From Deltaproteobacteria bacterium (GTDB lineage Bacteria; Desulfobacterota; Binatia; UBA9968), in contig SHYW01000037.1 of assembly GCA_009692615.1 (NCBI GenBank), positions 1 to 43,055 of the forward strand: 43,055 nucleotides of DNA, written 5' to 3'. This document shows, piece after piece, positions 28,110 to 35,881 of the stretch. A program made the translations under genes and the position numbers. Every line of letters starts with the position of its first letter. Position 1 is the stretch's first letter. A model generated the notes under the pieces. That model ran no database searches. It saw only the letters and a program-made list of their open reading frames with translations, and was not told where the DNA came from.

Positions 28110-28274
28110 TTATGAATTGCCGTTGCTCAGATGCTCTTTGAGCGTGCGGCGCAGTTCGGCTTTGGCGCGTTTACGCAGGACGTCTTTCTTGCTCTTGATG
28201 ATTTTTCCCGGCGGCGGCAGCTCTTTGCGCACCTTTGCCAAGCCGATGGAAATTTTTTTCGCTACCGGGTTCAA
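28110..28274 (-). CDS. Small basic protein coupled to clpB, function unknown
   Basis: This 54-residue reading frame starts with TTG, the last two bases of which are shared with the clpB TGA stop (TTGA overlap), and ends before the strong terminator. The product is Lys/Arg-rich: [20 protein letters not shown], then [20 protein letters not shown] likely long amphipathic helix occupies the second half. No family is recognised. Coupled reinitiation and position between clpB and its terminator make it credible. The composition would suit binding to nucleic acid, ribosome or an acidic partner, but that is speculation. Confidence 0.6.
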
Positions 28275-30898
28275 TGAATCGTTCTTGCTTCGTAAGCTTC
28301 GTCCGCCAGCGGCGCTGTGCCATGGCTGAAGTCCAGCTCGTCGTTGAGCACGTCGACTTTCACCCGATCGCCTTCTTTGAATTCGCCAGCGAGAATCTTA
28401 ACCGCCAGCGGGTCCTGAATCAATCGCTGGATGGTGCGCTTGAGCGGCCGCGCGCCGTAGACCGGATCATAGCCGGCTTCGGCGAGCAGCGCTTTGGCGC
28501 TTTCGCTGATATCCAAAGCCATTTTCCGCGCCGCCAAGTTATGGCGCAAGCGCTTGAGTTGGATGTCGACGATGGATTTAATCTCATCGCGGCCAAGATT
28601 ATTAAAAATAATCGTTTCATCGACGCGATTCAAAAATTCCGGCTTGAACGCCTCGCGCAAAGCCGCGTTGACGCGCTGCTCCATTTGCTTACGGTCTTTA
28701 GCGCCGAGTTCGAGAATATACTGACTGCCGAGGTTCGAGGTCATGATGATGACGGTGTTTTTAAAATCGACGGTGCGGCCTTGGCTGTCGGTCATGCGGC
28801 CGTCTTCGAGCACTTGCAACAGCGCGTTGAAGACATCGGGATGAGCCTTTTCGATTTCGTCGAATAGGACGACCGAATAGGGGCGGCGGCGCACGGCTTC
28901 GGTCAACTGCCCGCCTTCGTCGTAACCGACATAGCCGGGAGGGGCGCCGATCAAGCGCGACACGGAATGCTTTTCCATATACTCCGACATGTCGAGGCGC
29001 ACCATCGCCTGCTCGTTGTCGAACAGGAATTCCGCCAGCGCCCGGCACAGTTCAGTCTTTCCCACACCGGTAGGGCCCAGGAAAATAAACGAACCGATGG
29101 GGCGGTTCTGATCCTGCAAACCGGCGCGGGCGCGGCGCACGGCGTTGGCCACGGCATGAATCGCGCTTTCCTGGCCGACCACCCGCAGTTGCAACCGATC
29201 TTCCATCTTGAGCAGCTTTTGCACTTCGCCTTCGAGCATCTTCGAAACCGGAATGCCGGTCCATTTGGCGACCACCTCGGCGATATCTTCGGCGTCGACT
29301 TCCTCTTTGAGCATCTTTTGATCTTTTTGCAGCTCGTTCAACTGCTGGTTCGCCGCGGTTAAATCCTTTTGCAGTTGGCTCAAGGTGCCGTAGCGTAGCT
29401 CGGCGGCGCGGTTCAAGTCGCCGGCGCGCTGAGCTTTTTGCTCGTCGACTTTGGTCGCTTCGATTTTTTCTTTTAAGGCGCGAATGCGTTGAATCGATTG
29501 CTTTTCATTCTGCCAGTGGGCTTTGAGACCGCTGGAAGTTTCTTTGAGGTTGCGGATCTCGCCTTCAAGCTGGCCGAGCCGTTCCTTGGAGGCTTGATCT
29601 TCTTCGCGTTTGAGCGCTTGGCGTTCGATTTCCAATTGCATGATCTTGCGCTCGACTTCGTCGATCTCGATGGGCATGCTGTCGATTTCCATTCTCAGGC
29701 GCGACGCCGCTTCGTCGATCAAGTCGATGGCTTTGTCGGGCAGAAAGCGGTCGCTGATGTAGCGTTCCGAGAGCGTCGCCGCGGCGATGATCGCCGGATC
29801 GGTAATGCGCACGCCATGGTGCACTTCGTAGCGTTCTTTCAAGCCGCGGAGAATCGCGATGGCATCTTCCACCGAGGGTTCGCCGACCAAGACCGGTTGA
29901 AAGCGGCGCTCCAAGGCCGGATCTTTTTCCACCCGCTTGCGGTATTCGTCCAGCGTCGTGGCGCCGACGCAGCGTAGCTCGCCGCGGGCGAGCGCCGGCT
30001 TCAACATGTTCGATGCGTCCATGGCGCCTTCTGCCGCGCCGGCACCGACCAATGTGTGCAGCTCGTCAATGAACAAAATAATCCGGCCGCTCGCTTCAGT
30101 GACTTCTTTCAACACCGCTTTCAAGCGGTCTTCGAACTCGCCGCGGAATTTCGCGCCAGCGACCATGGCGGCCAAATCGAGGGACAATAGGCGCTTTTCC
30201 TTCAAGCCTTCGGGCACGTCGCCGTTGACGATGCGCAGCGCCAGCCCTTCGACGATGGCGGTTTTGCCGACGCCCGGCTCGCCGATCAGCACCGGATTAT
30301 TCTTGGTCCGGCGCGATAGCACTTGAATCACCCGGCGAATTTCATCGTCGCGGCCGATTACCGGATCGAGCTTACCGGCGCGCGCTAGATCGGTGAGATT
30401 GCGCGCGTATTTTTCCAACGCCTGATATTTTTCTTCGGGATTGGGATCGGTAATCCGCTGCGAGCCGCGGATACCGACCAGAGCGGCGAGAATTTTATCT
30501 TTGCTGGCGCCCAGCTCTTTGAGCAGCTTGCCGGTCTCACCGGTCTCTTGCACCATGGCGAGGAGCAAATGCTCGGTGGAAACATATTCGTCTTTGAGCG
30601 TTTCGGCTTCGGTCTCGGCGCTCTCGATGACTTTCTTGAGTCTTGGAGTGATGTAGCTTTGACCGGTGGCGCCAGTTACCTGGGGCAGACGATCGAGGGC
30701 TTTTTGCAATTTTTCGGTTAACCCATTGAGCGGCACGCCGAGTTTTTGCAACAGCGCGAGAACCACGCCGTCTTTTTGTCCCAACAGTGCGAACAATAGA
30801 TGTTCGACGTCGATCGCTTGATGATTGCGCTTGTCAGCGAGCCCCTGGGCTTGCTGCATGGCTTCTTGTGATTTGGTTGTCAGTTTATCTAATCGCAT
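28271..30898 (-). CDS. clpB: ATP-dependent chaperone ClpB
   Basis: This 875-residue Hsp100 disaggregase works with DnaK to rescue aggregated proteins. It has an N-terminal Clp_N domain ([21 protein letters not shown] onward). The first AAA+ module has GEPGVGKT and the Walker [16 protein letters not shown]. The long coiled middle domain, about residues 410-540, distinguishes ClpB from ClpA/C. The second AAA+ module has [19 protein letters not shown] and [24 protein letters not shown] lies just before the ATG. A TTGACA-containing promoter candidate is directly upstream. Its stop overlaps a small basic gene. Confidence 0.97.
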
Positions 30899-30922
30899 CG
30901 GCTTCCCCCGTCCGTGCAGGGA

Positions 30923-30950
30923 AGTTAAGCATGGTATCGGGAGCTGTCAA
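30923..30950 (-). promoter_or_regulatory. Candidate promoter for clpB
   Basis: On the minus strand a perfect TTGACA (30945-30950) is followed 16 bp later by TTAACT (30923-30928), a weak -10 match. The gene starts at 30898. No CIRCE element and no good sigma-32 -10 box was found, so heat regulation is not evident from sequence. Confidence 0.35.
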
Positions 30951-31021
30951 GAAAAGCGCCGCAGGGGGCCTATCAGGGGTAAAAAATGTTTCTTTAAAAC
31001 CCGCGATTGCCAGCCGTTAGC

Positions 31022-31810
31022 TCATTGACTGGGCAGTTCGAAACATTCGAACATCGACGCTGTCGCCAAGGCACGGTTGACCGCGCCCTCGGCGGCCTGA
31101 GTGTGAAGCACGATGCCGCCGTTGGTACGAATGTCAAAACCATACTCCGCCGGCAACACCGGCGTGCCGCGCATCTTGCGGATCGTCAGGGTTCGTTCAA
31201 AGCTCGCGCCGGCGCGATTTATTTTGAGGGCGAACACGCCGGAAGCCAAAAACTCTTCGATGCCGAAAGTTTGGTCTTGGTTGGCGCGGCTGGAAAAATG
31301 CGCAGTCAATATATTCGTCGTCGTGAGCTGGGTCTGAATTAAATTAATCAGCGCCCGGGCTTGATCCTGCCCCGGGCTGTCGGCGTCGGGCGGTAATATG
31401 AACGGCGTCACCGGATCGATGATCAACAGCGTCGCCCCGAGCCGTTTTATATAGTTGCCGAGATCGGCGACGATTTTTTGCGGGTCGATGCCTTTTTCAC
31501 TGGAGTTGCCGGAGCGGCCGCTAAAATAGGGCGACGCGTCCAAGATCGCCAAATTCTTATCCTGGATATGTTGTTGGAGGATCCACGAAAATGACAATGC
31601 CGAATCGGTGATCTCGGAGGGGCGTTCGTCGACGGTGACGTACACCGCTTTCTCGCCTTGGTCGAGGGCGCTTTGCAGCAACTGCAAGCAGGCGATGGTT
31701 TTGCCCGTGCCAGTGTCGCCGGTAAAAAGATAGGAGCGCCCTTTGACCAAGCCGCCGTGCAGCAATGAGTCGAGGGTTGCGATGCCTGTGGAAATGCGTT
31801 GGTCGTTCAT
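31022..31810 (-). CDS. Single-domain KaiC-like RecA-fold ATPase, copy 2
   Basis: This 262-residue protein is one KaiC-type domain. Walker A is GDTGTGKT (residues 31-38), Walker B is LLIIDP (D132), and the acidic pair after strand 2 is VTVDERPSEI (D61-E62), where KaiC has Glu-Glu. N-terminal STGIATLDSLLHGGLVKG matches the KaiC entry segment. It has no second domain or phosphorylation-type tail, so it is not a clock KaiC. It is the last gene of a three-gene unit with a paralogue 19 nt upstream and a giant coiled-coil gene. An ATP-dependent signalling role is inferred. Confidence 0.85.
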   Translation of the reverse strand: MNDQRISTGIATLDSLLHGGLVKGRSYLFTGDTGTGKTIACLQLLQSALDQGEKAVYVTVDERPSEITDSALSFSWILQQHIQDKNLAILDASPYFSGRSGNSSEKGIDPQKIVADLGNYIKRLGATLLIIDPVTPFILPPDADSPGQDQARALINLIQTQLTTTNILTAHFSSRANQDQTFGIEEFLASGVFALKINRAGASFERTLTIRKMRGTPVLPAEYGFDIRTNGGIVLHTQAAEGAVNRALATASMFECFELPSQ

Positions 31811-31829
31811 TGAATGGTCGGTCCTGAAA

Positions 31830-32552
31830 TTATTCGGCGCCGGCGATGACGAGGCCGGTCCCTTTGACGATGTCGAATTCCAATTGCCGCGGTTTGACGT
31901 CGGTGTAGCGCATTTTTTCGACGATCAGGCTGCGTCCGAGGGCGCCGCCTTTCCAAATCATTTCCAGCACGATGGCGCCGGCTACTAAATATTCCTCGAC
32001 GCCGTGCATGGAGCGCTCACCGCTGCGCGGCACGGCGTAGGAAGTTAATAGGTTGGTGGTCGGCATGGTCGTGCGCAGCAGTTGGATCAATTGGCGCATT
32101 TGATCTTGAATGCGCGTGGCGTTGTCGCGCAACAAGATGAATGGCCCCACTGGATCGAAGACCAACCGTTGGGCGCCGATCTGTGTGACGAAAACAGCGA
32201 GATCGTTGACCGCTTTTTGAATGTCGATGCGTTGTTCGCTGCCGGCGCTGGGCAGCGTGTTCAGATAACTGCCGGCGTTTAAAATCGCCAATTGCCGGTT
32301 TTGAATCAACGGCTCAAAATCCCAGCCCAGCGACGCGGCTTGGGCGATGATATCCATCGGCGTCTCGTCGGCGGTGATCCAAACGCTATTTTCGCCGCGC
32401 TTGAGACCCTCGTAGAGAAACTGCAAGGCAAAAATAGACTTGCCCGTGCCCGGCTCGCCGGTGACGAGAATCGACCGACCCTTGGGAAATCCGCCCTCGA
32501 TCAGCGGATCGAGTCCGACGATTCCGGTCGGCACCCGTTCGATCTGAATCAT
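31830..32552 (-). CDS. Single-domain KaiC-like RecA-fold ATPase, copy 1
   Basis: This 240-residue KaiC-type domain has Walker A GEPGTGKS (residues 32-39), ITADETPMDI (D62-E63, replacing Glu-Glu) and Walker B LVFDPVGPFIL (D133). The entry segment VPTGIVGLDPLIEGGFPKG is very KaiC-like. It is paralogous to the next gene but clearly diverged, so the two may form hetero-oligomers. AAGG lies 7 nt upstream of the ATG, and the gap to the coiled-coil gene is 28 nt. Family members commonly act as hexameric ATPases; partner and output here are unknown. Confidence 0.85.
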   Translation of the reverse strand: MIQIERVPTGIVGLDPLIEGGFPKGRSILVTGEPGTGKSIFALQFLYEGLKRGENSVWITADETPMDIIAQAASLGWDFEPLIQNRQLAILNAGSYLNTLPSAGSEQRIDIQKAVNDLAVFVTQIGAQRLVFDPVGPFILLRDNATRIQDQMRQLIQLLRTTMPTTNLLTSYAVPRSGERSMHGVEEYLVAGAIVLEMIWKGGALGRSLIVEKMRYTDVKPRQLEFDIVKGTGLVIAGAE

Positions 32553-32580
32553 GTGGCTACCTTTCTACGCATCTTTCGTT

Positions 32581-35562
32581 TCAAACTTTCCAACGCCGCT
32601 TGGCCGCGAATCCGCTTTGCCAGCGCCGTTCATGGGCCTGCGCGGCAAAATTTACAGTATCGCTGGCGGCGGTGTTGGTGCCTTCAAGGCGATTCGGTTC
32701 GCGCGCCGCTGCTTGTTCGCTCAACTGCTGGCGCAGGGTTTCAACTTCTTGGCGATACTCTTGTTCCGCGCCCTCGACCAAGGCGCGGCGTTCGTCCAGC
32801 GCCCAATCCTTTTGACTGAGCTCAGCTTGGAGCAACGCCAGTTGGGCTTGAAACTCGCTGCGCATGCTTTCTATTTCACTATTCGCGGCGCTTTCCGCTA
32901 ACGCGTTGGCGGCGGCCGTTAGGTTGAGCTGTTCCTGGTGCGCACCGAGATCGGTTTGATGGGCGTCGAGATCGGCCTTGACCCGCACCAGCTCGTCGTT
33001 GCGGTCCTGCAAAATGCGGTTGCGTTCTTCGACTTCGCGCACCAAGCGATCGACTTCGCGGCGTAGCGACTGTTCTAAGTTCGCTCGAGCTTCGGCTTGC
33101 TCCTCGAACTGGTCGTTGGTTTGCTTGAGCGCTAGGTTGAGGGCGTCGATCTGGGCAAGGGATTCTTGGCGCATCTGCTCGGCCCGGCTGAGCGCGGTCA
33201 ACTCGGCATGTTGCAGCGCGACTTCCAACTCTTCGACGCGCTGCTGCAACGCCCGCGAGAGTTCTTGTTGTTTCCTTAAATTTTCATCGCCCAGTCCGGC
33301 GCCGCCGCGCAGCTCGTGCAATTTGCCTTCGAGCTCACTCTTTTGTGCCCGGTAGGCCGCCGCCAATTCCTCGGCACTGGCTTGTTGTTGCGCCATTGCC
33401 CAGCTTTTTTGTTGCAGTTCCAGACGCAAGGCGTCGAGTTCGCCGGTCAGAACGGCGCGCGCTGGTTCGTCGGCTTGCTGAAGCTCCCGCTGCGCGGCCA
33501 AATCGTGTAGGCGAGTCTCCAGCGCGCCGCGCTCGGCGTTGGCGTTGGCGATTTCTCCGCTGCGGCTTGCGAGCATGCTTTCCAGCTCGGCGGCGCGCTG
33601 GACGAATTCCCGGTACTGTTCGCGGGCGCGATTGGCCGCTTCCCGTTCTTGGCTCAGTTCATTTTCCAGCCGGCGTCGTTCGGTCTGATGCGCGTCGTCG
33701 AGGGCGGCGATTTCATTGTGATGCGCGAGACGGCTTTGCTCGGTTTCTTGCAGAAGATGAGTCGATTGGTTTTGCGCCGACTCCAAGTCGGTCAATTGCG
33801 TCGCCAAACGGTGGTGTTGCACTTTGAGATCGGCGATCTCGTTGCTGCGGCTCTCGGTCAATAACTGTTTCTCGGCGAGCTGTAATTGCAGCTCGTTGAG
33901 CTTGGCGCCGAGTTGATCGGTGGTTTCGTCGCTACCCTTGCGAATCGCCTCGAGCTCGGCGGTTTTCGCTTGTAAACGTATTTGCAGTTCACTCTGAATG
34001 GCGCCCGAGCGTTGCCAATTTTCCTCGGCTTCTTGGCGGGCTAGTTCGGCGCTGTTTTGGCGCTCGCTCAGGGCGGTGATTTCCGCGTGAGCGTTTGCCA
34101 GCTCCTGGTCGCGGCGGGCGAGATCTTGCTGGCCGTGGGCCAGTTCCTGTTGCAACGCTTGAATCCTGCCATGCAGCGCGAGCTCGACGCCGGTGACCGC
34201 TTCGTAACGTTGGGTGAGATCCCGTTCTTTGACCGCAATATGGTGGTGCAGTTGCTCCAGTTCGTTTTCGAGCGCGACGCGCAGGTTTTCCAACGCGGCT
34301 TTGTCATTGCCCGCTTGTTGCTGCCCTGCTGCCAGTTCGCTGACGCGCTCGCGCAGGCCGGCGTTCTCGTTCTGCGCTTCATGCATAGCGCCATCGCGGG
34401 ACTCGGTCTGTTGACGTTTCTGGTCAATCTCTTGATGTAACCGACTAATTTCGGATCGGAGGTCTTCCTCGCCGGACGCTCGCGCGGCTTGTTCTTGTTG
34501 GTGCTCCTGCTGTCGTAAATCGAGCGCGCTTTGCAGTCGCGCGATCTCGGCGTTCAATCGATCGCGGCCTTGTTCTAGTCGATGATTGTCGTGCGCGGCT
34601 TGCTGTTGCGCCGCTTCCAGCTCGCCGACGCGCTGGCGCAGGCCGGCAATCTCTCTCTCAGCTTCATGCCAGGCGCCATCGCGCGACTCGATCTGTTGAC
34701 GTTTGTGCTCGATCTCTTGGCGTAATTGGATGATCTCGGCTTGAAGATTTTCCTCGACGGCGGTGCGCGCCGCGCGCTCTTGTTCGTATTCTTGCCGCCG
34801 CGCTGCTAGGGCGCTTTGGAGTTGGGCGATTTCGCCATTGAGTTCAGATCGGTTGCGCTCTAATTCGCTGGCGGCGTCGGCCTCGGCTTGTCGTCGGCTC
34901 GCTTGCAGCGCGGCAATGTCATTTCGCAGCGCGGCGATTTCTTCGCGGTATTTGTCGATCTCGCCGTCGGCGTTTTGTTGCCAAGCTTGTTTGTCCGCTA
35001 GTTGTGCTTGCAACTGTGCCAGCTGGGCGCGCAATTCGCGCTCAAGTTGTTGGGCGTCGAGCTGTTGTTGGCGGGAGTTCTGTTGGTCCTGCTCGGACTG
35101 CCAGCGCAACGCGGACAAATCGCTTTGCAGATTGTTGGCGAACAGCGTCGCCGCATGGGTTGCGGCTTGGGCCTGCTGGTACGCCGTTTCCAATTCGCCA
35201 ACTCGCTGCTCGAGTGTGATGACCCCGGCGCGGGTGGCTGCTAGATCGCCTTCGCGGATATTGAGCAGTGTTTCTTTGTCGTCGAGGAGAATTTCTAATT
35301 GATGGATGCGCTCGGCAAACGCTTGCTGTTGCGCCAGGTTTTCCGCTTGAGTGCGGCCGGCTTGCTCTTGCTCCGCCAAGGCCGCGCGCAGCTGGCTCAC
35401 CTCAATGCGATGCTGCTGTTGCACGCGCGCCGCTTCGTTGGCGCTAGTGGCTTGGGCTTGCTTGAGATAGAGTTCCATCAGGCGCGTCTGTGCCAACAGG
35501 ATATCGATCTCGTTGAGCAGGAGAATCGCCGGATCGTTCGGTGTTATGCTACTTCCATTCAT
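32581..35562 (-). CDS. Giant coiled-coil protein, 993 residues, function unknown
   Basis: Almost the whole protein is heptad-rich and dominated by Ala, Glu, Gln, Leu and Arg. It has no signal peptide or membrane span. A short non-coiled head (residues 1-40, with DPAILLLNEIDILLAQTRLM) may be a docking segment. A basic, Trp-containing tail (RRWQSGFAAKRRWKV) closes it. Residues 242-336 and 337-431 are a clear 95-residue tandem repeat. The extended shape suggests a scaffold or filament. It is first in an operon with two KaiC-like ATPases, behind a sigma-54-type promoter. SMC- or myosin-like resemblance is only compositional, as it has no head ATPase of its own. Confidence 0.85.
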   Translation of the reverse strand: MNGSSITPNDPAILLLNEIDILLAQTRLMELYLKQAQATSANEAARVQQQHRIEVSQLRAALAEQEQAGRTQAENLAQQQAFAERIHQLEILLDDKETLLNIREGDLAATRAGVITLEQRVGELETAYQQAQAATHAATLFANNLQSDLSALRWQSEQDQQNSRQQQLDAQQLERELRAQLAQLQAQLADKQAWQQNADGEIDKYREEIAALRNDIAALQASRRQAEADAASELERNRSELNGEIAQLQSALAARRQEYEQERAARTAVEENLQAEIIQLRQEIEHKRQQIESRDGAWHEAEREIAGLRQRVGELEAAQQQAAHDNHRLEQGRDRLNAEIARLQSALDLRQQEHQQEQAARASGEEDLRSEISRLHQEIDQKRQQTESRDGAMHEAQNENAGLRERVSELAAGQQQAGNDKAALENLRVALENELEQLHHHIAVKERDLTQRYEAVTGVELALHGRIQALQQELAHGQQDLARRDQELANAHAEITALSERQNSAELARQEAEENWQRSGAIQSELQIRLQAKTAELEAIRKGSDETTDQLGAKLNELQLQLAEKQLLTESRSNEIADLKVQHHRLATQLTDLESAQNQSTHLLQETEQSRLAHHNEIAALDDAHQTERRRLENELSQEREAANRAREQYREFVQRAAELESMLASRSGEIANANAERGALETRLHDLAAQRELQQADEPARAVLTGELDALRLELQQKSWAMAQQQASAEELAAAYRAQKSELEGKLHELRGGAGLGDENLRKQQELSRALQQRVEELEVALQHAELTALSRAEQMRQESLAQIDALNLALKQTNDQFEEQAEARANLEQSLRREVDRLVREVEERNRILQDRNDELVRVKADLDAHQTDLGAHQEQLNLTAAANALAESAANSEIESMRSEFQAQLALLQAELSQKDWALDERRALVEGAEQEYRQEVETLRQQLSEQAAAREPNRLEGTNTAASDTVNFAAQAHERRWQSGFAAKRRWKV
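34270..34839 (-). repeat. Internal tandem repeat of 285 bp in the coiled-coil gene
   Basis: Two consecutive 285-bp units (34555-34839 and 34270-34554) encode matching segments. Unit 1 has EIAQLQSALAARRQEYEQE and unit 2 has EIARLQSALDLRQQEHQQE. Later landmarks also match: EIEHKRQQIESRDGAWHEA against EIDQKRQQTESRDGAMHEA. DNA similarity is retained as well, so the duplication is fairly recent. The 95-residue period is not an exact number of heptads. Confidence 0.85.
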
Positions 35563-35881
35563 AAGTCAGAACTTGTGATCTTGGGGTCTCGGCGGCCCAC
35601 CCGATGAGCAGCAGACGAAACCCGCCAAGCCCCTGGCTATAGCGATTTGCGTGCCATTACTAAAAAACAGAGTGAAGCAAAATCAGCTAATTACCAACCG
35701 GCGAATACGAGTTTACGCGGCAGAATTCGCCAAAGCGGGGATTTTTGGACAATACCGAATAATCTTGGACAAAAATGTCTCTATGTTGACTAAAGTCATC
35801 TCGTTTCCTGTGAGCGGATATCCACCCGGAGAACCATCGGCTAATTGAAAAGCTCCTTGGCTGCCGCTAGAATCCGGCGCG
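35563..35881. other. Divergent intergenic region before the coiled-coil operon and hisC
   Basis: These 319 bp hold no gene. They contain the sigma-54-type promoter at 35641-35656 firing to the left. A small palindrome TGACTAAAGTCA at 35787-35798 might be an operator for either side. No convincing enhancer-binding-protein site and no clear sigma-70 promoter for hisC was identified by eye. The bases are noticeably more AT-rich than the flanking genes. Confidence 0.6.
35641..35656 (-). promoter_or_regulatory. Near-consensus sigma-54 (-24/-12) promoter
   Basis: The minus strand reads TGGCACGCAAATCGCT. It matches the sigma-54 consensus TGGCACG-N4-TTGCW at every defined position but one (TC for TT), with the GG and GC elements correctly spaced. 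Transcription would start near 35630, giving a leader of about 68 nt before the coiled-coil gene ATG at 35562. A sigma-54 promoter implies control by an enhancer-binding activator, which is not encoded in this window. Confidence 0.65.

Follow-up and report, generated by a model that had tools for sequence, protein, structure and literature searches.

The closest described relatives of the system reported here are built on ATPases of the KaiC family. They include the KaiABC and KaiBC timers of cyanobacteria and Rhodobacter, and the KaiC of Rhodobacter is outlined as a ring that is regulated by a coiled-coil bundle (PMC10076222). Archaea have single-domain KaiC-like ATPases, such as PH0186, SSO2452 and PH0284. 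Archaeal KaiC-family ATPases are summarised as predicted pilus regulators which associate with pilus operons, one of them having a helical partner (PMC4858521), and as signalling hubs in which KaiC-receiver fusions, Methanosarcinaceae included, and inactivated KaiC domains occur (PMC5847659). The archaellum regulator ArlH (FlaH) also belongs to the KaiC family and is reported in outline to act on a pilus-like motor, where it binds other motor components and modulates ArlI (PMC8978795). Among the titles and abstract openings of the openly licensed literature, no description was found of a system that combines KaiC with a coiled coil and sigma-54.

Such a combination was observed in the window, by which is meant the whole stretch of 43,055 nucleotides of contig SHYW01000037.1 that was analysed. 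ORF calling gave a minus-strand operon of three tightly spaced genes, exactly as a sequence-only reading of this DNA had described it. The first gene encodes a 993-residue coiled-coil protein with 4 prolines, here called CC (32581..35562). It is followed after 28 nt by the gene for a single-domain KaiC-family ATPase of 240 aa, KaiC-B (31830..32552), and after a further 19 nt by that for a second single-domain ATPase of 262 aa, KaiC-A (31022..31810). The operon is flanked by hisC, which is divergent (plus strand, 35882), and by clpB, which is co-directional (minus strand, 28271-30898). clpB was considered as a further operon member and set aside, because a conserved promoter-like element (CTTTTCTTGACA..TTAACTTC, 30921..30956, minus strand) separates it from KaiC-A, or from whichever gene precedes it, in all 12 loci aligned. 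The CTTGAC of this element is invariant in 12/12 loci, both locus types being represented, and clpB likely has a promoter of its own; it was treated as a neighbour outside the operon. Neither che nor pil genes were recognised among the window proteins scanned.

KaiC-A and KaiC-B scored 171.4 and 202.2 bits, respectively, with the Pfam KaiC model PF06745, for which the cut-off is 26.6. In ATPases of this kind catalytic roles belong to Walker A, an acidic pair, Walker B and a trans-acting K-x-R finger. All of these are kept in the alignment columns of both window proteins, with the acidic pair as DE, and they are likewise kept, the finger reading K-M-R, in 9/9 KaiC-A rows and 12/12 KaiC-B rows. 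The two proteins had been called diverged single-domain ATPases; the single domain stands, but degenerate they are not. In a tree of 48 proteins, KaiC-B formed one clade (12 rows, support 100/100) and KaiC-A another (9 rows, 99/97). At E 1e-40 relatives of KaiC-A were found in 23 of the 148 genomes of the class, 22 of them in the family of the window and one in family f2. An AlphaFold2 model of KaiC-B as a single chain (pLDDT 83.4, alignment of 20) had the CI domain of KaiC as its best structural match (Z 29.8, rmsd 2.0 Å, 221 residues aligned), and on this model KaiC-B is predicted to adopt a KaiC CI-like fold. The three archaeal single-domain proteins named above matched the model with Z values of 27.7-28.5. 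The window ATPases are thus like timer KaiC in family, fold and motifs and like the archaeal proteins in having one domain. They are unlike the latter in belonging to a bacterial system that includes a giant coiled coil and has a sigma-54 promoter, and both fell far below the cut-off of the NCBIfam archaeal KaiC models. Nor do they resemble ArlH closely: the NCBIfam ArlH equivalog gave 48.9 and 62.5 bits against a cut-off of 215, and a motor gene was not recognised at the locus.

A sigma-54-type -24/-12 element, TGGCACGCAAATCGCT, was located by a consensus scan at 35641..35656 on the minus strand, with its start 94 nt before the start codon of CC. It has one mismatch to the consensus used and is the sole window match with fewer than two; at up to two mismatches the scan returned 13 matches in the window versus about 21 in shuffles. 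When the intergenic region upstream of CC was shuffled, 1 of 300 shuffles equalled the score of TGGCACGCAAATCGCT. Taken on the window alone, the element would be weak evidence for a promoter. It becomes convincing because it is conserved in relatives: the pattern TGGCAYG-N4-T-N-GC was present, in the same place and direction, in all 11 loci with an upstream region (the window and 10 relatives), which bears out the near-consensus promoter claimed earlier. Over 25 loci the pattern occurred 11 times, always at the promoter position, versus about 1.3 expected, a count that is descriptive as the pattern was fitted to these same sites. The 14 loci without it comprise 11 of a sister type described below, a stretch of G004 starting downstream of the promoter, a G020 contig starting inside CC and a damaged second copy in G017. 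The 11 loci with the element include two, in G003 and G004, besides the nine clade I regions scored below.

Scoring of the nine clade I intergenic regions against the sigma-54 consensus gave a best site with GG-N10-GC in 9/9, beating the opposite strand each time. In eight of the nine, at most 13 of 300 shuffles were as good, and in the long region of L045 the figure was 96 of 300. When the nine regions were aligned, the -24/-12 element held 9 of the 17 invariant columns. No sigma-54 site was found in the 11 sister-type loci, where the intergenic regions are just 61-200 nt long. RpoN is encoded once in the window genome, which also has five strong matches to the activator domain PF00158, one of them with an in-frame stop. 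A correctly directed GG-N10-GC upstream of the operon and a genome with RpoN and enhancer-binding activators were therefore both found, and a predicted sigma-54 promoter ahead of the CC operon is well supported. A sigma-54 regulon was also sought by pattern in the window genome and none was inferred: a near-identical pattern gave 5 matches versus 13 in a reversed control, without enrichment, and the 4 matches other than the window site fall inside predicted ORFs, one of which has just 68 aa. A TTGTCC direct repeat with a 20-bp period (35747..35772, minus strand) lies some 90 bp further upstream than the -24/-12 element. At up to one mismatch it gave 12 matches in the genome versus 4 in a reversed control, and the window site was the single exact match. 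Both copies of the TGTCC core are present in 7/9 aligned regions (the exceptions being L048 and L044, the latter with one altered copy), and GTCC-N16-GTCC is present in G003 and G004. The repeat is a candidate activator site.

The slot between hisC and clpB was surveyed by tblastn with eight named proteins on 24 loci in addition to the window. KaiC-B was found at this slot in 11 genomes (G000, G001, G004, G005, G008, G010, G014, G015, G017, G020 and G023). The contigs of G020 and G023 do not reach hisC and clpB, respectively, and in G008 clpB was seen only in pieces. In this search the window-type locus lay between hisC and clpB wherever clade I loci have both flanks. KaiC-A follows KaiC-B in 9 of the 11 genomes, and in G014 and G017 the next searched protein is clpB. 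CC is more variable still. KaiC-B was intact where CC is a relic (G005), where only its C-terminal part remains (G015) and where it was not seen (G008), and also in G014, whose CC ends early with the tail motif in another frame, and in G023, whose CC has no strong N-terminal match. Gene order, which the sequence-only reading had proposed to check, is conserved among the KaiC-B loci, but KaiC-A is missing in two, and in several CC is a relic, has been shortened or split, or is missing. Since KaiC-B stays intact where CC is reduced, split or absent, CC cannot be an absolute requirement. That several genomes have lost CC or KaiC-A, CC being reduced or absent where KaiC-B and the promoter are kept, argues against an obligate machine made of the envisaged scaffold and paired ATPases.

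Sister genera hold a different set of genes at the same slot. In G011, G021, G009 and G016 a KaiC, a receiver-KaiC fusion and a receiver/coiled-coil/HATPase_c protein lie between hisC and clpB, and the same three-gene set runs up to the contig end in G022 and G024. The set is found without the histidine-kinase-like (HK-like) gene in G013, and without both this gene and clpB in G025. KaiC stands alone at the slot in G006 and G019, and likewise in G012 without hisC beside it; G019 carries the sister-type three-gene set elsewhere in its genome. G016 and G024 have an interrupted reading frame for the sister-type KaiC, and in G013 this frame is partly masked. In the receiver-KaiC fusions, the acidic-pair column is occupied by D-D, D-S or D-E, in contrast to the uniform D-E of the KaiC-A and KaiC-B rows, and K-x-R is lost; the fusions are presumably inactive. 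The position of the H-box histidine in the HK-like proteins, which we assume to be correctly placed from the general motif, is occupied by E or D in 6 of 7 proteins examined. In the seventh (G019) no H-box was found by expression, and a weak HisKA Pfam match was obtained. The sister slot thus apparently encodes a histidine-kinase-like protein without its histidine. It had been stated that no histidine kinase is present; this is correct for the 14 window proteins scanned, but the sister-genus slot holds the HK-like protein together with the receiver-KaiC fusion. At L053:4777-7309, L054:2152-4640, L055:12104-14686 and L069:3411-5976 the fusion and the HK-like protein occupy the slot of the window CC and KaiC-A.

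Conserved order, conserved promoter, catalytic motifs and repeated adjacency of a coiled coil lead us to read the locus as a sigma-54-activated KaiC-family signalling switch with an upstream coiled-coil partner, to which we give a probability a little under one half (about 0.45). The coiled-coil bundle of Rhodobacter KaiC and the archaeal KaiC-family ATPases predicted to regulate pili serve as precedents. A signalling or an assembly device had been suggested, and signalling is favoured over assembly because of the receiver-KaiC fusion and HK-like protein in the sister slot. We regard the system as a probable signalling switch, specific to its lineage, rather than a clock of any known kind. KaiC-B, and usually also KaiC-A, would be RecA-fold ATPases that are expected to form hexameric rings, and the nucleotide state of the KaiC ring would change the shape of the ring. 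CC could then bind the ring, probably via its conserved N-terminal segment (LLNEIDILLAQTRLMELYLKQAQA, from an alignment of five N-termini) and/or its basic and aromatic C-terminal tail (RRWQSGFAAKRRWKV), and would relay the state of the ring to another structure or position the ring there. We infer both the signalling role and the contact between coiled coil and KaiC. The CC-type locus would have arisen in one bacterial family, and in this branch the hisC-clpB slot may have gained the coiled coil, the second KaiC and the sigma-54 promoter in place of the sister set. One family thus offers, at one locus, a KaiC either with two-component-like proteins or with a giant coiled coil, a conserved sigma-54 promoter and, in most cases, a second KaiC, which amounts to a natural experiment. 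It also names testable partners for single-domain bacterial KaiC proteins, and it suggests that coiled coils may be recurrent readers of the KaiC state. Our leading guess is that the switch acts on a type IV pilus or a chemosensory system, because the sister KaiC clade is linked to pil and che genes.

The same links bear on a rather doubtful alternative, a regulator of pili or motility in which KaiC-B and KaiC-A would do to a type IV pilus motor what ArlH does to ArlI, and CC would serve as a scaffold at the pole or at the motor. The KaiC proteins of a second coiled-coil/KaiC pair (G000 contig C16, G002 C38, G014 C160) join a group of KaiC-B and one G012 protein in the tree with support 97/91. 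A coiled coil of another family precedes KaiC in all three of these genomes, which form a biased sample as the search for these pairs started from KaiC and went upstream. The N-termini of this family and of CC showed no detectable homology (probability 4.8). A profile of the second family had matches in 5 of 35 genomes, four being its own rows, and the members that it found in G003 and G017 are both cut off by a contig end. In G014 (L059:211-5588) the second coiled coil and KaiC are followed by PilM and, further on, PilP, all on one strand, and in the window genome (C16, L040:117-5185) the pair diverges from receiver, cheD and cheA-like genes; the pil and the che link are one case each. The window-genome KaiC on C16 has the Walker A sequence GQPGTGKL, in which the last residue is unusual. 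On another contig of G017 (L050:3466-8418) a second, damaged copy of CC-KaiC-B is accompanied by a clpB fragment and has on its upstream side two T2SSE genes, which we take to be PilT-like. PilM is present in the window genome, and the pilus association of archaeal KaiC families and the modulation of ArlI by ArlH, both referred to above, fit a pilus regulator. Against it stand the hisC and clpB flanks of the window locus, the scanned neighbours, which are neither pil nor che, the small number of cases and the low ArlH scores.

It is unlikely, too, that the signalling switch is one instance of a general bacterial arrangement of KaiC and a cognate coiled coil, in which two related KaiC clades would each have acquired their upstream partner from a different one of two unrelated coiled-coil families. 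Such an arrangement would be a trans version of the coiled-coil allostery of Rhodobacter KaiC, controlling type IV pili or chemosensory output.

A quite improbable reading is that the three genes are loose neighbours, in which duplicated KaiC genes and a fast-evolving coiled coil share a promoter without a joint function. KaiC-A and CC are missing independently in some genomes, as this would predict, and much of the adjacency of coiled coils and KaiC was ascertained from the KaiC side. The distribution of CC argues otherwise. An N-terminal CC profile built from five genomes was run on 35 genomes of the order and found 7 strong matches (E at most 4e-23), each of them next to hisC at this locus and none elsewhere. 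Five of the seven immediately precede KaiC-B, so that the outcome named beforehand as refuting, homologues of CC that never neighbour KaiC-like genes, did not arise; five of the seven are also the profile's own rows, the independent finds being only G003, where the contig ends inside the gene, and G004, where CC is interrupted. In the latter (L134:5636-18109) the gene is split by an island of about 12 kb with integrase-like genes. Another 20 profile matches were weaker (E 3e-6 to 0.01) and resemble generic coiled coil. The unrelated coiled coil upstream of the sister KaiC in three cases likewise counts against loose neighbours. In nine loci (the window, L041, L044, L045, L046, L047, L048, L049 and L050) the tail motif RRW-x-KRRWK is encoded directly upstream of kaiC-B; the expression had four other matches, all in unrelated frames, and the motif was not found upstream of kaiC-B in G010.

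CC might instead form the filament or scaffold of a cytoskeletal or positioning device whose assembly is controlled by the ATPases, which appears decidedly improbable. Its length and few prolines agree with this, as does a single-sequence structure model that is mostly helix at low confidence (pLDDT 58.6) and serves as a helix hint only. Long forms of 1015 aa (G017) and 1685 aa (G001) exist besides the window protein; elsewhere CC is shorter, damaged or missing. The window CC also contains, as structural coiled coils do, an internal tandem duplication of 95 residues (residues about 241-430; 34273..34842, minus strand), which was found by self-comparison at offset 95, where 39/60 residues are identical versus 20/60 in the best of 20 shuffles. 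Tandem Repeats Finder gave zero rows on the CC DNA, and blastp of CC against itself gave no output. In the comparison with intermediate-filament-like proteins, relatives of CC gave only weak matches, below the Pfam cut-offs. Opposed to a structural device are the widely varying length of CC, the reduction or loss of its gene while KaiC-B stays, and the lack of any Pfam match to the window CC at E 0.01. Furthermore, no KaiC ATPase is known to us to assemble filaments. A heptad Fourier test was non-discriminating, with z 3.8 for CC, 4.0 for the ClpB control and 0.2 for HisC. An SMC-like reading of CC was set aside, SMC_prok_B giving 45.6 bits versus a cut-off of 567 and NCBIfam returning only generic coiled-coil scores. 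Coiled-coil domains are also part of the layout of the AglZ/FrzS-type regulators of Myxococcus. These regulators are cytoplasmic and act together with motility systems, according to the outline in PMC12288465, and the likeness to CC is by description only; unlike them, CC has no receiver domain that could be found by Pfam.

A residual hourglass timer running on KaiC without KaiA and KaiB is extremely improbable, since the KaiC fold and motifs and the coiled coil used by the Rhodobacter hourglass timer, as outlined in PMC10076222, are set against a single CI-type domain, the failure to find KaiB in the window genome and the company that KaiB keeps elsewhere in the family. The window ATPases have one domain each in place of the CI and CII of double-domain KaiC, and they scored 100 and 103 bits with the circ_KaiC model, for which the cut-off is 546. 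KaiB had 0 matches in the window genome, which is 98.7% complete, in a search whose control gave matches in 6 of 14 named genomes, S. elongatus included, and exceeded the cut-off in 1. The earlier statements that neither the double-domain clock architecture nor kaiB is present were thereby confirmed, and a clock reading was rejected for want of a second domain and of KaiB. The coiled coil, in addition, is here a separate, much longer protein encoded upstream, unlike in the KaiABC and KaiBC timers. KaiB was found in 5 of 25 family genomes. On three contigs examined, from G007, G012 and G019 (L071, L073 and L074), it lies away from the hisC locus beside longer KaiC-like proteins of 621, 420 and 603 aa, respectively.
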